Shown here piece after piece: positions 18,172 through 56,436 of a stretch of 64,000 nucleotides of DNA (within the stretch, counting starts at the first letter, position 1; every line of letters starts with the position of its first letter). The DNA comes from Methanosphaerula palustris E1-9c (GTDB lineage Archaea; Halobacteriota; Methanomicrobia; Methanomicrobiales; Methanospirillaceae): positions 868,001-932,000 of the forward strand of contig NC_011832.1 of assembly GCF_000021965.1 (NCBI RefSeq). The letters run 5' to 3'. The notes beneath the pieces are model-generated. The model ran no database searches. It was given only the letters and a program-made list of their open reading frames with translations, and was not told the origin of the DNA. The translations under genes and the position numbers were made by a program.

Positions 18172-19638
18172 TTACAGTGCGTTGAACACTATCACGACAT
18201 CATCGAAATCGATCCGGCCGTTCCTGTTGAAGTCAAAGGCTCTGACCGGTTCATTGTCGGCTATCCAGTCCATCTGGTTGAAGAAGAGGACTACGTCGTT
18301 GAAATTCAGAACCCCATTGCCGTCGATATCCTCATAGAGCCCGTCGTTGTTGAGGTCCCGGGGGGCGGTTACCGACGGGGGTACCGGTTGCATCGGAGAG
18401 ACGATGGCCGAGACCTTTTGTGTACTGCTGAATCCTGCGGCATTGAACGCCTGCAATGTTGCCGAGTAGATTCCCACGGTGGTATAGGTGTGCGACGGAC
18501 TCTGTTGTGACGATCCAGCGGGTTGGAGCCGCCACGTGTCGTTCCGGATGGTGGAGTCGTCCAAACCGCCCATGAGTACGATACTTCCGTCCGGCATCGC
18601 TACGCTGGTGTGATGGAATCTTCCCGACCAACCGGCATTTTGTACCTGCGCCCATGTTTCGCCCTTGTCGGTCGACCGCCACAGATCGTTCAACAGGGCG
18701 GTGTCGTTCAAACCTCCCATGAGTACGATGCTCCCGTCCGGCATCACTACGCTGCTGTGACTGTACCGTGCCGACCACCCGGAACTCGCGTTCACGAGCG
18801 TCCACGTTCTGCCGTTATCAGTCGACCGCCATACGTCGTTCAGGGGGGTGGTGTCGTCCCAACCGCCCATGAGTACGATGCTTCCGTCCGGCATCGCGAC
18901 CGCTGTCTGGCAGTCCCGCTCAGACCATCCGGAGTTCGGGTTCATCAGCGTCCAGGTTTTGCCGTCATCAGTCGACCTCCACGTATCATTTGTGAGATTC
19001 CCGCTCTCATCCCTACCGCCCGCGAGTACGATGCTTCCGTCCGGCATCGCTACACTGCTGTGATAGAATCTTCCTGACCACCCGGAGTTCGCGTTCATCA
19101 GCGTCCATGTAGCGCCGTCATCGGTCGACCTCCATGTGTCGTTCATATAGGTGGATTCATTACCACCGCCCATGAGTACGATGCTTCCGTCCGGCATCGC
19201 TACGCTGCTCAGTCCGGCCCTTGCCGGCCACCCGGAACTCGCGTTCATCAGCGTCCACGTAGCGCCGTTATCGATCGACCTCCATGTATCATTCAAAATG
19301 GCTCTTGATTCATTACTATAGCCTCCCATGAGTACGATGCTCCCATCCGGCATTACCACGCTGCTGTGACTGAATCTTTCCGACCACCCGGAATGTGCAT
19401 TCTGCTGCGTCCACGGTTGGGTATACGTCTCATCACCGAAGAACCATGACCAGCCGGTTGGACTGCCGGTCGATGTATCGGTGAAGTTGACGGTCAGGGG
19501 TACAGTGCCGTTGATCGGCGTGCTGCTGAATGCTGCTGTCGGGGCACCAGCAGCGCTGACCGTGCCGACTAGCAGCAGAAGAACAGTGATTAACAGACAT
19601 GCCGTCATCAGAGGCATGTTCTTCGGATGATATATCAT
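18172..19638 (-). CDS. Secreted Kelch-type propeller nested in a PKD domain, with dockerin-like C-terminus
   Basis: 488 residues with an N-terminal signal segment (TACLLITVLLLLVGTVSA). Residues ~32-70 start a PKD domain (FSSTPINGTVPLTVNFTDTS, WSWFFGDE). Six units of ~53 residues follow, each with MPDGSIVLMGG and NDTWRSTD, a Kelch-like six-bladed propeller. After them SPSHTYTTVGIYSATLQAFN supplies the rest of the same PKD fold, so the propeller appears to sit in a PKD loop. Residues ~428-488 carry two EF-hand-like calcium loops (DIDGNGVLNFNDV, DFNRNGRIDFDDV), a dockerin-type module also found on the beta-helix protein at 51060. Likely a surface or extracellular adhesion protein. Confidence 0.88.
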   Translation of the reverse strand: MIYHPKNMPLMTACLLITVLLLLVGTVSAAGAPTAAFSSTPINGTVPLTVNFTDTSTGSPTGWSWFFGDETYTQPWTQQNAHSGWSERFSHSSVVMPDGSIVLMGGYSNESRAILNDTWRSIDNGATWTLMNASSGWPARAGLSSVAMPDGSIVLMGGGNESTYMNDTWRSTDDGATWTLMNANSGWSGRFYHSSVAMPDGSIVLAGGRDESGNLTNDTWRSTDDGKTWTLMNPNSGWSERDCQTAVAMPDGSIVLMGGWDDTTPLNDVWRSTDNGRTWTLVNASSGWSARYSHSSVVMPDGSIVLMGGLNDTALLNDLWRSTDKGETWAQVQNAGWSGRFHHTSVAMPDGSIVLMGGLDDSTIRNDTWRLQPAGSSQQSPSHTYTTVGIYSATLQAFNAAGFSSTQKVSAIVSPMQPVPPSVTAPRDLNNDGLYEDIDGNGVLNFNDVVLFFNQMDWIADNEPVRAFDFNRNGRIDFDDVVIVFNAL

Positions 19639-19902: not shown

Positions 19903-21645
19903 TCAGGCGACTCGCTGTATCCTTCCGTCGACGGTTCTGTTCACCGGCTGGGGGAGCGATCCGATATAGTCTGTCAGGGCATCGATATCCTCCTGGCCGA
20001 ACGTGACGTTCTTCCCTTCGGTGAAGGTCGTGTAACCGTCACCGCCGGTGGCGAGGAAATCATCCGTCGCAACGGTGTAGGTCGCGTTCAGGTCGAGCGG
20101 AAGATCATGTACCGTCACATTCGTCACCCTGCTGCCGGCAGGTCTGGCTGCATCATAGGAATACACCAGCCCTGAGACCATGAGATTGTGCGGGGGAAGG
20201 GGCTCCTGCCACTGCTCTTCAAGGATCTGCCGGATCTGGTCGCCGGTCATGGTCATCGACACGACCGTGTCGGCGAAGGGCTGGACTGAATAGAGGTTGC
20301 CCCAGGTGATCGTTCCTCTTGTAAGATCGGCCCGAATCGACCCGGCGCTCACGAACCCCACATCCGCCTTCATCGAGTTCCGGAATTCATCTGCGATCAG
20401 GTCCCCGAGCGCTGATTCCCCTGCTGGGTTCTGATCCCGGGTGATATTTTCGGCTGCTTCACCGATTGTTCGGTTCACGATCGGTGCGATCGTCTTCTCA
20501 TCGTCGGCCAGGAACGCAGCGGTGGCGGGGTCCGGGCTGGTGCCCGGGGACTGATCCGCATAGACCGGGACGATCCGTGCGGATTTGTTCGTGATCTCCC
20601 TGCCTGTCCGGTCGATCGTGAGGTCGACATCGGCGAAGCCCGTGCTGTACATGTATGCCTGGGTGACGAGCACCTGGTTTCCGCCGGCGTTCTTCAGATA
20701 AGCGTTGGTGAACTCATGCGTATGACCGGAGAGGACCACGTCGACATCGCTGTCGAGCCGGGGGATGATCTCGGCCACCCGCCCGGTCACGGTTCCGTTC
20801 GCCTGGGTGGGACCGTCGTAGGGGGTCTGGTTGCCGCCCTCGTGCAGGAGGACGACGATCGCATGGACGCCCTGCTGCTGAATCTCCGGGATGTACCGAT
20901 TGATGGAGTCGGCTTCATCCAGGAAGGTCACATCCTTGATGGCGTCAGCTTTCTGAACGAGGGGGGTGTTCATCGTATCCGCACCGATGAACGCAATGGG
21001 GACCCCGCTGACGTTTTTGATCGTATAGGGCGGGAGGACGGTGGTGTTGTTGGCCTTCCAGACCACGTTCGCCGAGACATAGGTGGAGTTCGAGGCGGGA
21101 TACGGGTCGACGAGGTGGGTGATGTTGCTCGTTCCATCTCCGCCACCGATCATTCTCATCAGTTCCGATGTCCCTTTATCGAACTCGTGGTTGCCGAGTG
21201 TCGCTACGATCGTACTGTTGTGTATTGCAGAGAGCGGGGTGCCGGTGCTGTTCTGCCCTGCTAGGGAGTCGAAGAAGAGCATCGTCGGCTCGTCGAGGAG
21301 GAGCCCGGACTCGGGAGGCGAGGCTCCGATGATATCCCCGGGCAGGGCGATGATGGTGCCGTCGGCCTTCTCCGATGCCATCGTTGCATTCAGATAGGAG
21401 GCCAGGACCGGCGCACTGCCGGCCTGCCGTTTATTCAGTTTCTGTCCGGGGGGCAGCTGCCCGTGAAAATCGTTGACCGCGAGGATCTTCACGTGGACGG
21501 TTGCACTGGTCTGCGGTGTCGTCACCGGACCGGCCGGATGCCCGGCGAGAAGGATCGGTGTCAGGATGAGGAGCCCGAGGATGCAGAGTCCGATGAGGAA
21601 CTGCAGGCTGTTCGGGATCGTGTTCTGCCGGGGTTCAGGCGTCAT
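19903..21645 (-). CDS. Secreted 5'-nucleotidase / 2',3'-cyclic phosphodiesterase, copy 1
   Basis: 580 residues, UshA type. One N-terminal membrane segment (FLIGLCILGLLILTPILLAG, residues ~17-36) exports or anchors it. The metallophosphoesterase domain shows all motifs: NDFHG (D59, H61), PGDIIG (D104), GNHEFDKG (N152, catalytic H153), LLHEGG (H269) and GHTHEF (H308, H310). The C-terminal nucleotide-binding domain carries GDLIADEFRN, VSAGSIRADL and a final TGGDGYTTF. It would release phosphate from extracellular nucleotides. A paralogue of the same length lies at 32528-34270, and ~50 bp upstream of both genes are also alike, so the duplication took the promoter along. Confidence 0.95.
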   Translation of the reverse strand: MTPEPRQNTIPNSLQFLIGLCILGLLILTPILLAGHPAGPVTTPQTSATVHVKILAVNDFHGQLPPGQKLNKRQAGSAPVLASYLNATMASEKADGTIIALPGDIIGASPPESGLLLDEPTMLFFDSLAGQNSTGTPLSAIHNSTIVATLGNHEFDKGTSELMRMIGGGDGTSNITHLVDPYPASNSTYVSANVVWKANNTTVLPPYTIKNVSGVPIAFIGADTMNTPLVQKADAIKDVTFLDEADSINRYIPEIQQQGVHAIVVLLHEGGNQTPYDGPTQANGTVTGRVAEIIPRLDSDVDVVLSGHTHEFTNAYLKNAGGNQVLVTQAYMYSTGFADVDLTIDRTGREITNKSARIVPVYADQSPGTSPDPATAAFLADDEKTIAPIVNRTIGEAAENITRDQNPAGESALGDLIADEFRNSMKADVGFVSAGSIRADLTRGTITWGNLYSVQPFADTVVSMTMTGDQIRQILEEQWQEPLPPHNLMVSGLVYSYDAARPAGSRVTNVTVHDLPLDLNATYTVATDDFLATGGDGYTTFTEGKNVTFGQEDIDALTDYIGSLPQPVNRTVDGRIQRVA

Positions 21646-32527: not shown

Positions 32528-34270
32528 TCAGTGGATCCGCTGTATCCTCCCATCGATGGTCACGTTCACCGGCTGTGGAGAAGATCCGATATAGGCGGTC
32601 AACGCATCGATATCTTTCAGAACGAAGGTGACGTCCTTCCCCTGGGTGAAGGTCGTGTACCCATCACCACCGCTGAGGAGGTAGTCGACCGTCGCAACGG
32701 TATAGGTCGCGTTCAGGTCGAGGGGACGATCGTGTACCTTCACCTCCGTCACCCTGTTGCCGGCGGGTCTTGTTGTATCATAGGTGTACACCAGCCCCGA
32801 AACCATCAGATTATGCGGAGGGAGTGGCTCCTGCCACTGCTGTTCAAGGACCTGCCGAATCTGGTCGCCGGTGAGGGTCATCGACAGGACTGTGCCGGAG
32901 GACGGCTGAACGGCATACAGATCGCCCCAGGAGATATTTCCCTGAGTGATATCAGCCCGTATCGACCCGGCGCTCTCGAATCCGATATCCGCCTCCATGG
33001 TGCCCCGGAGTTCATCGGCAATCAGGTCCCCGAGCGCCGATTCGCCGGCAGGGTTCTGGTCCCTGGTGATATTTTGGGCTGCTACACCGATCACCTGTTT
33101 CACCATCGGTGCAACGGCCTTCTCATCGGCGGCCAGGAGCGCAGCGGCGGCAGGGTCCGGGCTGGTACCGGGAGCCTGATCTGCATAGGTCGTGATGATC
33201 CGGGCGGACTTGTTGGTGATATCCCCGCCAGCCCGATCGATCGTGAGATCGACATCGGCGAAGCCCATGCCGAACATGTACGCCTGCGTGACGAGGACGG
33301 GTTTATTGCCCGAGTTGTTCAGGTAGGTGTTGGTGAACTGATGGGTGTGGGCTGAGAGGACCACGTCGACATCGCTGTCGAGCCGGGGAATGATCGTGGC
33401 CACCCGCCCGGTCACGGTTCCGTTCCCCCGGGTGGGACCGTCGTAGGGGGTCTGGTTCCCGCCCTCGTGGAGGAGGACGACGATCGCATGAACGCCCTGC
33501 TGCTGAATCTCCGGGATGTACCTGTTGATGGAGTCGGCTTCATCCAGGAAGGTCACATCCTTGACGTTGGCTGCTTCCTGAAGCCCGGGGGTGGTGATCG
33601 TATCGGCGCCGATGAATGCGATCGGAACCCCGCTGACGTTTCGGATCGTATAGGGCGGGAGGATCGTGGTGTTGTTGGCCTTCCAGACCACGTTCGCCGA
33701 GACATAGGTGGACCTCGAGCCCGGGTACGGGTCGACGAGGTGGGTGATGTTCGTCGTTCCGTTCCCGCCGTTGATCTCTCTCATCAGTTCCGGCACCCCT
33801 CGATCGAAATCCTGGTTGCCGAGCGTTGCAATCATATTCCCTGAGGAATTCGGGGAGGAGGACAGGGTGGTCGTATTCTGGTCTGCAAAGGAGTTGAAGA
33901 AGAGCATCGTCGGTTCGTCGAGGAGGAGCCCGGACTCGGGAGGCGAATTCCCGTAGACATCCCCGGGGATGGCAATGATGGTGCCGTCCGCTTTCTCTGA
34001 CGTGATCGCTGATTTCAGGTAGGAAGCCAGGACCGGTGCTCCCCCGACTGTGCGGTTATTCATCGTCTGTCCGGGGGGAAGGTGTCCGTGAAAATCGTTG
34101 ACTGCGAGGATCTTCACATGGACGGTTCCATTGGCCAGGGGTGCTGTCACCGGACCGGCCGGATGCCCGACGAGGAGGATCGGTGTCAGGATGAGGAGTC
34201 CGAGGATGCAGAGCCCGATGAGGAACTGCAGGCTGTTGGGGATCGTCTTCTGCCGGGGATCGAGTGTCAT
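32528..34270 (-). CDS. 5'-nucleotidase paralogue, copy 2, with altered catalytic motif
   Basis: 580 residues, aligned without gaps to copy 1 at 19903-21645 over most of its length. Same membrane segment, NDFHG, PGDVYG, LLHEGG and C-terminal nucleotide-binding motifs (GDLIADELRG, ESAGSIRADI, SGGDGYTTF). But the GNHEFD motif reads GNQDFD, so catalytic His153 (UshA H117) is Gln, and GHTHEF reads AHTHQF. Metal ligands are kept. It may bind without hydrolysing, be much slower, or have new specificity. Upstream bases 34271-34320 resemble those of copy 1. Downstream, 32460-32525 holds a weak version of repeat A. Confidence 0.92.
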   Translation of the reverse strand: MTLDPRQKTIPNSLQFLIGLCILGLLILTPILLVGHPAGPVTAPLANGTVHVKILAVNDFHGHLPPGQTMNNRTVGGAPVLASYLKSAITSEKADGTIIAIPGDVYGNSPPESGLLLDEPTMLFFNSFADQNTTTLSSSPNSSGNMIATLGNQDFDRGVPELMREINGGNGTTNITHLVDPYPGSRSTYVSANVVWKANNTTILPPYTIRNVSGVPIAFIGADTITTPGLQEAANVKDVTFLDEADSINRYIPEIQQQGVHAIVVLLHEGGNQTPYDGPTRGNGTVTGRVATIIPRLDSDVDVVLSAHTHQFTNTYLNNSGNKPVLVTQAYMFGMGFADVDLTIDRAGGDITNKSARIITTYADQAPGTSPDPAAAALLAADEKAVAPMVKQVIGVAAQNITRDQNPAGESALGDLIADELRGTMEADIGFESAGSIRADITQGNISWGDLYAVQPSSGTVLSMTLTGDQIRQVLEQQWQEPLPPHNLMVSGLVYTYDTTRPAGNRVTEVKVHDRPLDLNATYTVATVDYLLSGGDGYTTFTQGKDVTFVLKDIDALTAYIGSSPQPVNVTIDGRIQRIH

Positions 34271-53813: not shown

Positions 53814-54614
53814 TTAGTCTAATTGTCCACTGATATGAGCAGTGTACCTTCCGGATTCTGTGATTGAAACGTAAACGCGTGTACCTTCCTTTTTACGATT
53901 CACAAATCCCTGTTTCTCCAGTTTGGATAAAATTGTTTTATCCAATTTCATTAACTGATTGCTCTGCAGAGTCCGCATTCTACTTTTTTCAACTTCATCA
54001 AATAATTCCTCGAATCCCATTACATTTTCTGATTTTAGAAAATCTAAGATCTCCTTCATTTTTTTTCTCTTATTCTCATTACACAAAAAAAGTAAAATTC
54101 TCAAACCGATTGGATCTGGCATTACAATTTGGAAATTACTTAATTTTTCTGTTTTACCTTCTCGACAAATACTTAATCCATGTTTTTGACGAAGAATTTC
54201 TTTTGAGGGGTAATCATCTGAGTGGACATAATAGACATTAGTATCATGAGCCATACCAGCGAGTGTAGCAGCAACTGATGTAAGGCGACCAGCTGCCGAC
54301 ATATTGACAAAAATTCGATTGTTTTGTTTCTTTTCTTTGACTATTATTTTTGATACATTTTTCATTACATCCAGAAGATCAAATAAATCTACTTTAACCA
54401 TTGGTTGGACATCAATTCCTTTGGCGACTAAACTCTTTCTGACTTTTTCATAATAGTAATGTTGTTTTTTGCTCATCTCGTCATCAGAGTTAATATCATT
54501 CCAATTGGTGAGAAGATAAACACGGTCAGCTTTGATTTTTTCAAATGGTTTTATTGCCCGGTCGATTTCGTGACCTAATGGAATAATATGAACAGTTTCT
54601 TCGATGTTCGTCAT
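53814..54614 (-). CDS. CARF-like Rossmann sensor with winged-helix DNA-binding domain
   Basis: 266 residues. Residues ~1-150 are a Rossmann-like fold of the DUF6293/HFX_2341 and CARF type: VHIIPLGHEIDRAIKPFEKI, ADRVYLLTN, RIFVNMSAAGRLTSVAATLA (the ligand-loop region) and TNVYYVHSDDYPSK. Residues ~165-262 are a winged helix: IGLRILLFLCNENKRKKMKE, SRMRTLQSNQLMKLDKTILS, KLEKQGFVNRKKEGTRVYVS. CARF domains bind cyclic oligonucleotides in CRISPR type III signalling; this one diverges from a CBASS, not a CRISPR locus. AT-rich, same island as the CBASS. Four TGCTAA boxes lie just before its ATG. Role as the CBASS regulator is inference. Confidence 0.85.
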   Translation of the reverse strand: MTNIEETVHIIPLGHEIDRAIKPFEKIKADRVYLLTNWNDINSDDEMSKKQHYYYEKVRKSLVAKGIDVQPMVKVDLFDLLDVMKNVSKIIVKEKKQNNRIFVNMSAAGRLTSVAATLAGMAHDTNVYYVHSDDYPSKEILRQKHGLSICREGKTEKLSNFQIVMPDPIGLRILLFLCNENKRKKMKEILDFLKSENVMGFEELFDEVEKSRMRTLQSNQLMKLDKTILSKLEKQGFVNRKKEGTRVYVSITESGRYTAHISGQLD

Positions 54615-54615
54615 A

Positions 54616-54648
54616 TGCTAACAATGCTAAATGTGCTAATTATGCTAA
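54616..54648. promoter_or_regulatory. Array of four TGCTAA boxes at 9-bp spacing
   Basis: TGCTAA occurs at 54616, 54625, 54634 and 54643, exactly 9 bp apart, immediately upstream of the CARF-HTH start codon (54614) and within the 300-bp divergent region shared with the CBASS operon. Regular iterons of this kind usually bind an oligomeric regulator; the CARF-HTH protein is the obvious candidate. The rest of 54649-54914 is AT-rich promoter DNA. Confidence 0.7.
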
Positions 54649-54914
54649 AATAAAACTGTCCATATAAAATTGTGACAAAATATTCTAAGAGGTCATCCCA
54701 AAACTTCCTTTCATCTCCATATCAGCTGATTATAGGTCATTCCATCGGCGAGACAAAGGGTAGTGATTTGTTTTGGGATAAGATCTAAGAAAATTCAATT
54801 ACTCACAATTATCTGAAACGTGGAATCGCGTTTGAAACGAGAAAAGGCCAAGAGCATTGTGTTATCAAGTTGGTGTATTTGATTGACTTCGGTATCTATC
54901 ATAACTAAATTTTT

Positions 54915-55823
54915 ATGGTGAAGAATATGGGAATTTCAGAGAAACAGTTAGAAACTTGGTCTAATCAAGGTGCAATAATTACCTCACAAAAAACACACGA
55001 ATCGATTAGAAATGCATTGAATAATTCAGAACTCCTAAAAGAAAGGAATTATGATGTGTATCTTCAAGGATCTTATCGGAATTCAACAAATATATACGGT
55101 GAGAGTGATGTGGACGTAGTGGTTCAACTGAATTCTGTATATAATTATAACATTTCAGGATTGACACAATCAGCCCAATCAAAATTTCATGAAGAACATG
55201 ATTGTGTTACATATGGATACGAATCATTTCGATCCGATATTCTCAATGTATTAATTGAGTACTATGGGGCTTCGGAAATTGCTGATGGTAATAAGTCAAT
55301 AAAGATAGCAAGGGGGTCTAACAGATTAGCCGCAGATGTCGTTGTATGTACGCAATATCGGTATTATACAAAGTATAATGGAATTAATGATGAGAATTAT
55401 ATTGAGGGTATGGCATTTTATCCGCAAAACGGATGTCAAAAAATTGTAAATTATCCAAAATATCATTTTAACAACGGGGCAAAAAAAAATAATCCTCAAA
55501 ATACGAATGCTTGGTTTAAGCCAGTTGTTAGAATGTTTAAAAATGCTCGAATAAAATTGGTGAATGACGAGAAAATTTCCAAAGGGTTAGCTCCTTCGTA
55601 TTTTTTGGAATGTTTACTCTATAATGTACCGAATTCAAAATTTGGTAAAAACTATTCTGACTCATATCAGAACATTATCAATTGGTTATCTGATTGTAAT
55701 CTTGACGATTTTTTATGCCAACACGGGTTATATAAATTATTTGGATTCTCAACAGAGCAATGGTCAAAAGAGAATGCAGAGACGTTAATTAAAAATTATG
55801 TGGATCTTTGGAAAGATTGGTGA
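54915..55823 (+). CDS. CD-NTase (cGAS/DncV-like nucleotidyltransferase) of a CBASS
   Basis: 302 residues. Nucleotidyltransferase core: YLQGSYRNSTNIYGESDVDV gives the GS (G52, S53) and first two metal Asp residues (D65, D67); NRLAADVVVC gives the third (D141). C-terminal OAS-like helical domain (KPVVRMFKNARIKL, SKGLAPSYFLECLLYN). These enzymes make cyclic di- or trinucleotides on phage infection. ATG 54927 (MGISEKQ...) has GGTGA a few bases upstream and is an equally good start. It overlaps the effector gene by 26 bp. No Cap2/Cap3 or HORMA/TRIP13 genes follow, so this is a minimal type I CBASS. Confidence 0.92.
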   Translation: MVKNMGISEKQLETWSNQGAIITSQKTHESIRNALNNSELLKERNYDVYLQGSYRNSTNIYGESDVDVVVQLNSVYNYNISGLTQSAQSKFHEEHDCVTYGYESFRSDILNVLIEYYGASEIADGNKSIKIARGSNRLAADVVVCTQYRYYTKYNGINDENYIEGMAFYPQNGCQKIVNYPKYHFNNGAKKNNPQNTNAWFKPVVRMFKNARIKLVNDEKISKGLAPSYFLECLLYNVPNSKFGKNYSDSYQNIINWLSDCNLDDFLCQHGLYKLFGFSTEQWSKENAETLIKNYVDLWKDW

Positions 55824-56436
55824 GATTTTGCATTCTTATAGTATAGATACCGATGAAAGGAAAAAAATTCCAATTTATTTAGCAATTGTAAGTGTAGTTC
55901 TGATAGGAATTTTCTCCTATATGATGAGTATCATCAATATCTCACTTCCTTGGTTCCTTGAACCCTTATACCTGAGTGCACCATCTGCAATTACACTTTC
56001 TTTTTTCCTGTCCTTCCATTATGATAAATATCTCTGGAGATTACCAATATTTCAACTATTAGGTATATCTAAAACTCCAAATTTTAACGGAAATTGGTTT
56101 GGAATAATTAATACCTCGTATGATGGTCACAATGAATCACATGATGTAAAAATCAATATTACTCAACAATGGCAAACCATTAGTATTGTTCTCGAAACTC
56201 AATATTCAGCGTCTCATAGTTTTATTGCAGGAATATTGATTAACGAACATCGAGGAATTACCCTTCATTACGGGTATAAAAACGAACCATTTTCGAACGC
56301 TGTTCAAACGATGCATGCACATCGTGGAACAACTTGGTTGATTTTTAATGAAGAAACTGACTCATTAGAAGGAGAGTATTATTCGGGACGAGATAGGATT
56401 ACACATGGAATATTAAAGTTAAAACGTGAAAAATAA
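55798..56436 (+). CDS. Cap15-type two-TM beta-barrel CBASS effector
   Basis: 212 residues. Two membrane helices (IPIYLAIVSVVLIGIFSYMM, ~24-45, and LSAPSAITLSFFLSFHY, ~59-75) are followed by a beta-rich domain that opens with PNFNGNWFGIINTSYDG and continues with HDVKINITQQWQTISIVLET, GITLHYGYKN and LEGEYYSGRDRITHGILKLK. This is the SMODS-associated 2TM-beta layout of Cap15, which oligomerises on binding a cyclic nucleotide and disrupts the membrane. Overlap with the CD-NTase gene ensures coexpression. Confidence 0.85.
   Translation: MWIFGKIGEILHSYSIDTDERKKIPIYLAIVSVVLIGIFSYMMSIINISLPWFLEPLYLSAPSAITLSFFLSFHYDKYLWRLPIFQLLGISKTPNFNGNWFGIINTSYDGHNESHDVKINITQQWQTISIVLETQYSASHSFIAGILINEHRGITLHYGYKNEPFSNAVQTMHAHRGTTWLIFNEETDSLEGEYYSGRDRITHGILKLKREK

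Follow-up and report, generated by a model that had tools for sequence, protein, structure and literature searches.

A 9-bp direct-repeat array at the start of a CARF-wHTH regulator gene of Methanosphaerula palustris, a putative autoregulatory operator

The gene for a CARF-wHTH regulator in Methanosphaerula palustris E1-9c starts within an array of 9-bp direct repeats that is probably an autoregulatory operator, on which the winged-helix domains of the regulator would assemble head-to-tail to repress their own gene, under tuning by the CARF domain. The array was analyzed in a window of 64,000 nt (the whole stretch of DNA under study; assembly GCF_000021965.1, contig NC_011832.1, positions 868,001-932,000, forward strand), in which the regulator, a protein of 266 aa, is encoded on the minus strand at 53814..54614. 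The plus-strand letters at 54613-54649 are ATATGCTAACAATGCTAAATGTGCTAATTATGCTAAA, with TGCTAA boxes starting at 54616, 54625, 54634 and 54643, that is, with an exact period of 9 bp, and a single base (54615) separates the boxes from the CAT (54614-54612) that is the ATG of the minus-strand gene. Read on the minus strand, the proposed operator (54613..54648) consists of four tandem units, TTAGCATAA TTAGCACAT TTAGCATTG TTAGCATAT, followed by G, the last unit overlapping the start codon; TRF reports a period of 9 and 4.1 copies. The coordinates and spacing of this array in a preceding sequence-only reading are thus confirmed.

The regularity of the array exceeds what chance would produce, as that reading had asserted: given the local composition, the probability that a hexamer is accompanied by three more exact copies in phase is ~4e-11 per position, and a pattern of four boxes, with 3 mismatches allowed, is matched once in the 64 kb compared to 0 in 100 shuffles. 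A search of the 2.92-Mb genome for three in-phase boxes (up to 3 mismatches) recovers the array and two sites with 3 mismatches, the reversed-pattern control yielding three sites, so that the array is single-copy in the genome. Across the same 2.92 Mb there is no further array and pairs of boxes are no more frequent than in the control, for which reasons a genome-wide regulon in M. palustris was rejected. A coding origin of the array was rejected as well. The minus strand in the frame of the gene reads TAG CAT ... TAG CAT ATG, and because TAG stops occur within the array, it is non-coding in this frame; in agreement with the earlier claim, the repeat is not a codon effect, even if the last 9-bp unit still overlaps the ATG. 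The label "iteron" originally attached to the array should not imply a replication element. Elsewhere in the window, a tandem array of ~150-bp units (5.6 copies, 18550-19393) is located possibly inside a repeat-protein gene, and a 15-bp tandem repeat, AGGATGAAGAGCCCG, occurs twice, at 21563-21593 and 34188-34218, 12.6 kb apart, which suggests a duplicated segment.

Orthologues of the regulator were drawn from the phylum (393 genomes) and from the order (232 genomes), with ~6 kb of flanking sequence where the contig allowed and with start codons taken from the ORF reading. The period test was run first as a plain autocorrelation and then as an all-pairs unit test, and both are reported here. 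Among 37 non-redundant upstream regions, the mean autocorrelation Z is 2.86 at lag 9, 1.66 at lag 18 and <0.6 at the other lags, with Z>3 at lag 9 in 19 of the 37 regions and in none of the control regions (220-330 bp upstream); no period other than 9 and its multiple 18 stands out in the DNA ahead of the orthologues. The all-pairs test (p <= 0.01) detects a significant 9-bp array in 24 of the 34 non-redundant non-haloarchaeal orthologues, leaving ~30% of them without one, compared to 8 of 250 starts of other genes in these loci (Fisher p 2e-20, odds ratio 73; the array p-values come from shuffles of single regions, and the orthologues share ancestry). The arrays sit at the same place, the start of the regulator gene. 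Short AT-rich repeats do arise by chance, as the 8 control gene starts that pass the test illustrate; nevertheless, the contrast between orthologues and controls and the prominence of lag 9 with its multiple leave practically no room for a functionless repeat produced by chance or slippage.

The unit consensus is (T/A)(T/G)A(A/G)CATnn and varies by clade, with TTAGCAT or TTAACAT in the closest relatives and TGAACAT, TGAATAT, ATAACAT and TTAATAT elsewhere. The search for the same box upstream of close orthologues, which had been put forward as a check on the operator claim, came out positive: arrays are present in L053 (68% identical; TTAACATAA TTAACATAT TTAGCATTG TTAGCTTAT), in L054 (64% identical; TTAGCATTC ATAGCATCC TTACTATGG TTAACATAT) and in L057/L058 (54-56% identical). 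Distant members also possess arrays, namely L103-L109 (27-35% identity), L101/L102 and some haloarchaeal proteins, including those with the VHIAPLGYE start (e.g., L121, L123, L125, L127 and L130) and the plasmid-borne L119. By contrast, no array was found in the haloarchaeal members with VHVVPLGYEFDR or a similar sequence (L132-L141), so that the haloarchaeal branch resembling HFX_2341 appears to lack the array; by its resemblance, the published HFX_2341 protein itself would belong to this branch. Given that repeats of this type precede most relatives across several archaeal lineages, the array is very probably the docking track of the regulator. A scan of viral contigs yielded one relative, L116, with no significant array. 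A scan of genome contigs with a single protein also yielded one, L002:2525-3367, on a 3.7-kb contig of an Oscillospiraceae MAG; this contig resembles L084, from the order to which M. palustris itself belongs, and may be mis-binned.

The regulator contains two Pfam domains, HFX_2341_N (PF19810; E 2.2e-40, 138 bits versus the Pfam cut-off of 30) and the winged helix DUF6293_C (PF22665; E 8.3e-23, 81 bits versus the cut-off of 27), the only other match being a sub-threshold one to Cas_APE2256. PADLOC assigns the protein to the CARF3 family with an E-value of 1.1e-118, compared to 1.1e-4 for Csa3, and an identification as Csa3 (type I-A associated) was therefore rejected; so was membership in the BldC family, since no MerR-like domain is among the Pfam matches. 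An AlphaFold2 model built with 47 family sequences (pLDDT 94) comprises a CARF domain (residues 5-162) and a winged helix (163-264) with a long recognition helix (210-234). Residues 5-162 of the model match the cyclic-oligoadenylate-binding CARF proteins Cam1, Can2 and Csm6 and ring nucleases, with Z up to 15.9, and this N-terminal domain resembles cA4-binding CARF proteins in fold; the C-terminal domain (matched over residues 163-266) resembles RosR and MepR-like winged helices. Two models for Cas10 find no such protein in the M. palustris genome, and a type III signal is thus unlikely for the regulator here.

The identity of the binding protein was addressed through covariation between the unit profiles and the protein sequences of 26 non-redundant orthologues, which share ancestry (cut-offs of 80% identity and PWM score >10, each chosen once; the PWM was trained on the same family, and the conservation result is independent of it). 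With CARF similarity removed, box similarity follows the similarity of the recognition-helix segment 206-226 (partial r 0.40, permutation p 0.0005). Helices 1-2 give a weak signal (0.14, p 0.02), and neither the wing nor any of three CARF segments correlates with box similarity in these 26 orthologues. A sliding 21-residue scan places the best window of the protein at 204-224. Single columns outside the recognition helix (e.g., 150) score too, so that the covariation amounts to regional support rather than to a residue code. In addition, one genome (G159) encodes three paralogues, each with its own array, and the boxes differ. The covariation and these paralogues point to the adjacent CARF-wHTH protein as the putative binder of the array. 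The earlier designation of the array as a candidate operator for this protein is accordingly upheld, by the arrays at orthologues together with the covariation of box and recognition helix.

Should a different protein, such as a general archaeal regulator or one belonging to a neighboring gene, bind the array in place of the CARF protein, the absence of the array from some orthologues would be easy to accommodate. However, the array accompanies the CARF-wHTH family across lineages and changing neighborhoods, and its sequence follows the recognition helix of this protein specifically, which makes such a binder very unlikely. A dyad within the unit was also considered: the reverse-complement correlation reaches 0.68 at one shift, with p 0.05-0.17, and this weak symmetry within the unit was set aside as not significant. 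The CARF-wHTH proteins studied so far (MM_0565, Csa3) are two-fold dimers, for which a palindrome would be the more natural site, a point that counts against the assembly on direct repeats proposed below.

The regulator gene has a TATA-like element, TTTTATAT (54662..54669, minus strand), which could serve both directions given its plus-strand sequence, ATATAAAA. Across the orthologues, an AT-rich, TATA-like peak is found 12-18 bp before the first unit, i.e., about 15 bp before the array. In archaeal promoters, transcription typically begins ~25 bp beyond the TATA box. From the position of the TATA-like element, the transcription start of the regulator gene is predicted near 54640, inside the array; with the element ~15 bp ahead of it, the array thus spans both this predicted start and the start codon. 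We infer the following mode of action. Each winged-helix domain would recognize one 9-bp unit, (T/A)(T/G)A(A/G)CATnn, with several protomers aligned head-to-tail on three to four units. Because the bound array would cover the predicted transcription start and the start codon, the protein would block RNA polymerase and repress the regulator gene, and the CARF domain would loosen or tighten the binding upon a nucleotide signal.

The location of the repeat past the predicted start of transcription and ahead of the start codon, and its extension into the coding sequence in L103-L109, would also suit an element acting in the mRNA leader or start region, for translation or RNA binding, rather than as DNA. 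Yet the pattern co-varies with a DNA-recognition helix, and in L065, L093 and some haloarchaea the array stops well before the start codon, so that we consider action at the RNA level highly improbable and retain the autoregulatory DNA operator as the preferred reading.

The genes identified beside the array are the regulator and the genes of a CBASS system. The divergent neighbor on the plus strand is a CBASS CD-NTase, an oligonucleotide cyclase (54915..55823, with a second in-frame ATG at 54927), followed by the effector Cap15 (55798..56436, plus strand), which contains two TM helices and a cyclic-nucleotide receptor domain; a type I restriction system on the minus strand comes after the CBASS genes. 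The array is 266 bp away from the CD-NTase ORF. Between them lies an imperfect inverted repeat (54679..54795) with 26-nt arms (54679-54704 and 54770-54795) that are 81% complementary; TCTAAGA-like sequences flank it, as might be the case for an inserted element. With an insertion-sequence origin in mind, the genome was scanned for further copies, and the repeat proved to be single-copy. Relatives of this CD-NTase and of Cap15 are absent from the 61 other orthologue loci, most of them covered with ~6 kb of flank. With the array at the regulator start, 266 bp from CBASS, and no such CBASS at the other loci, the array belongs with the regulator gene, and the initial description of the region as a CBASS/CARF divergent promoter was not borne out in its CBASS part beyond mere adjacency. 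CBASS-specific regulation of the CapW type was likewise dismissed as the main role, given that the neighborhoods of the orthologues do not repeat the association.

A related possibility is that the array serves chiefly the divergent gene, here CBASS, as an activator site or a shared repressor site, with autoregulation being secondary. By simple ORF calling, 46 of 60 orthologue loci have a divergently oriented ORF as the closest one upstream, in many cases 60-150 bp from where the regulator gene begins, and the plus-strand reading of the TATA-like element has the array just upstream. On the other hand, the array is always at the regulator start, whereas the divergent genes differ between loci (nuclease-like, OB-like, glycosylase-like, lipoprotein), and in the window the CBASS ORF lies at a distance, behind the inverted repeat. 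These observations render a primarily divergent role unlikely and are best compatible with an operator of the regulator gene itself, from which CBASS might conceivably be controlled as well, e.g., via the TATA-like element if it acts in both directions.

Several divergent neighbors recur among the orthologue loci; annotating them as defence genes was rejected because PADLOC gave no match and Pfam weak ones at most. A protein of 239-262 aa that resembles HhH/OGG glycosylases is encoded divergently from CARF-wHTH genes in L075, L072, L095 and L098; in L075 the gene lies about 95-884 bp upstream of the regulator, Pfam matches this copy only weakly, and PADLOC matches neither it nor the L095 copy. 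A small protein of ~113-165 aa with the start MRTxLQxLxGK recurs in the same orientation, adjacent to the array, in L062, L072, L084 and L090, with no Pfam match for those of L062 and L084. In L054 and L057, the divergent gene adjacent to the array encodes a protein of 96-111 aa with a GEVKCR motif, nuclease-like by eye and with no Pfam match. On a plasmid of Halorarius litoreus (L120:884-2756), a DUF6293 gene is divergent to genes of the E2/UBC and ThiF families, possibly a ubiquitin-like defence module.

Among the characterized systems, HFX_2341 (crr) of Haloferax mediterranei shares the DUF6293 domain family, by name, with the regulator in the window; deletion and over-expression show it to be a repressor, it is encoded on the main chromosome and described as global, and the authors report no binding site and call for identification of the binding regions (PMC11434293). 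The haloarchaeal members that resemble it appear to lack the 9-bp array, unlike the regulator in the window. Csa3a and Csa3b of Sulfolobales (PDB 2WTE, 6W11, 6WXQ) combine CARF with a C-terminal wHTH, a fold that the model matches. The reported Csa3a sites are palindromes of 18-24 bp (the CAPP motif), as opposed to the 9-bp direct repeats here; in vitro, the purified protein bound these palindromes without specificity (PMC8699464). MM_0565 from Methanosarcina mazei, an archaeal CARF-wHTH protein like the regulator, is a dimer with a leaderless transcript, is described as close to Csa3a, and yielded no distinct binding motif (PMC7465815). A parallel to the array with a solved arrangement comes from BldC of Streptomyces, the wHTH protomers of which bind head-to-tail, one per 9-bp direct repeat, on sites of as many as four repeats (36 bp; PMC5859096). 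Three or more 9-bp direct repeats in register are common to both systems, and by this analogy we propose one wHTH per unit on the array; the BldC family is unrelated to the regulator, however, being MerR-like, 68 residues long and devoid of a ligand-binding domain. CapW and BrxR are local regulators of defence genes (CBASS and BREX, respectively) and, like the regulator, have a ligand-sensing domain, but this domain is WYL rather than CARF, and they bind palindromes or inverted repeats.

In the open-licence full text that was searched, no CARF protein is reported to use the head-to-tail mode on 9-bp direct repeats. A more far-reaching proposal, on the speculative side and rather doubtful as a whole, is that DUF6293 CARF-wHTH proteins form ligand-controlled head-to-tail assemblies on such repeats and that the ligand in the window is the nucleotide made by the CBASS cyclase; if this is true, CBASS signaling would feed back on transcription via a CARF protein. 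The presence of a CARF sensor next to CBASS, in a genome where no Cas10 was detected, raises the question of which signal it reads. More generally, CARF-wHTH regulators are widespread in archaea and their DNA targets are unsettled (PMC8699464 for Csa3a, PMC7465815 for MM_0565, PMC11434293 for HFX_2341). A 9-bp operator predicts an assembly of multiple protomers, not a simple dimer on a palindrome, and its conserved, clade-specific repeats constitute a 36-bp probe with built-in controls that renders the DNA specificity and the ligand of the DUF6293 family directly testable.
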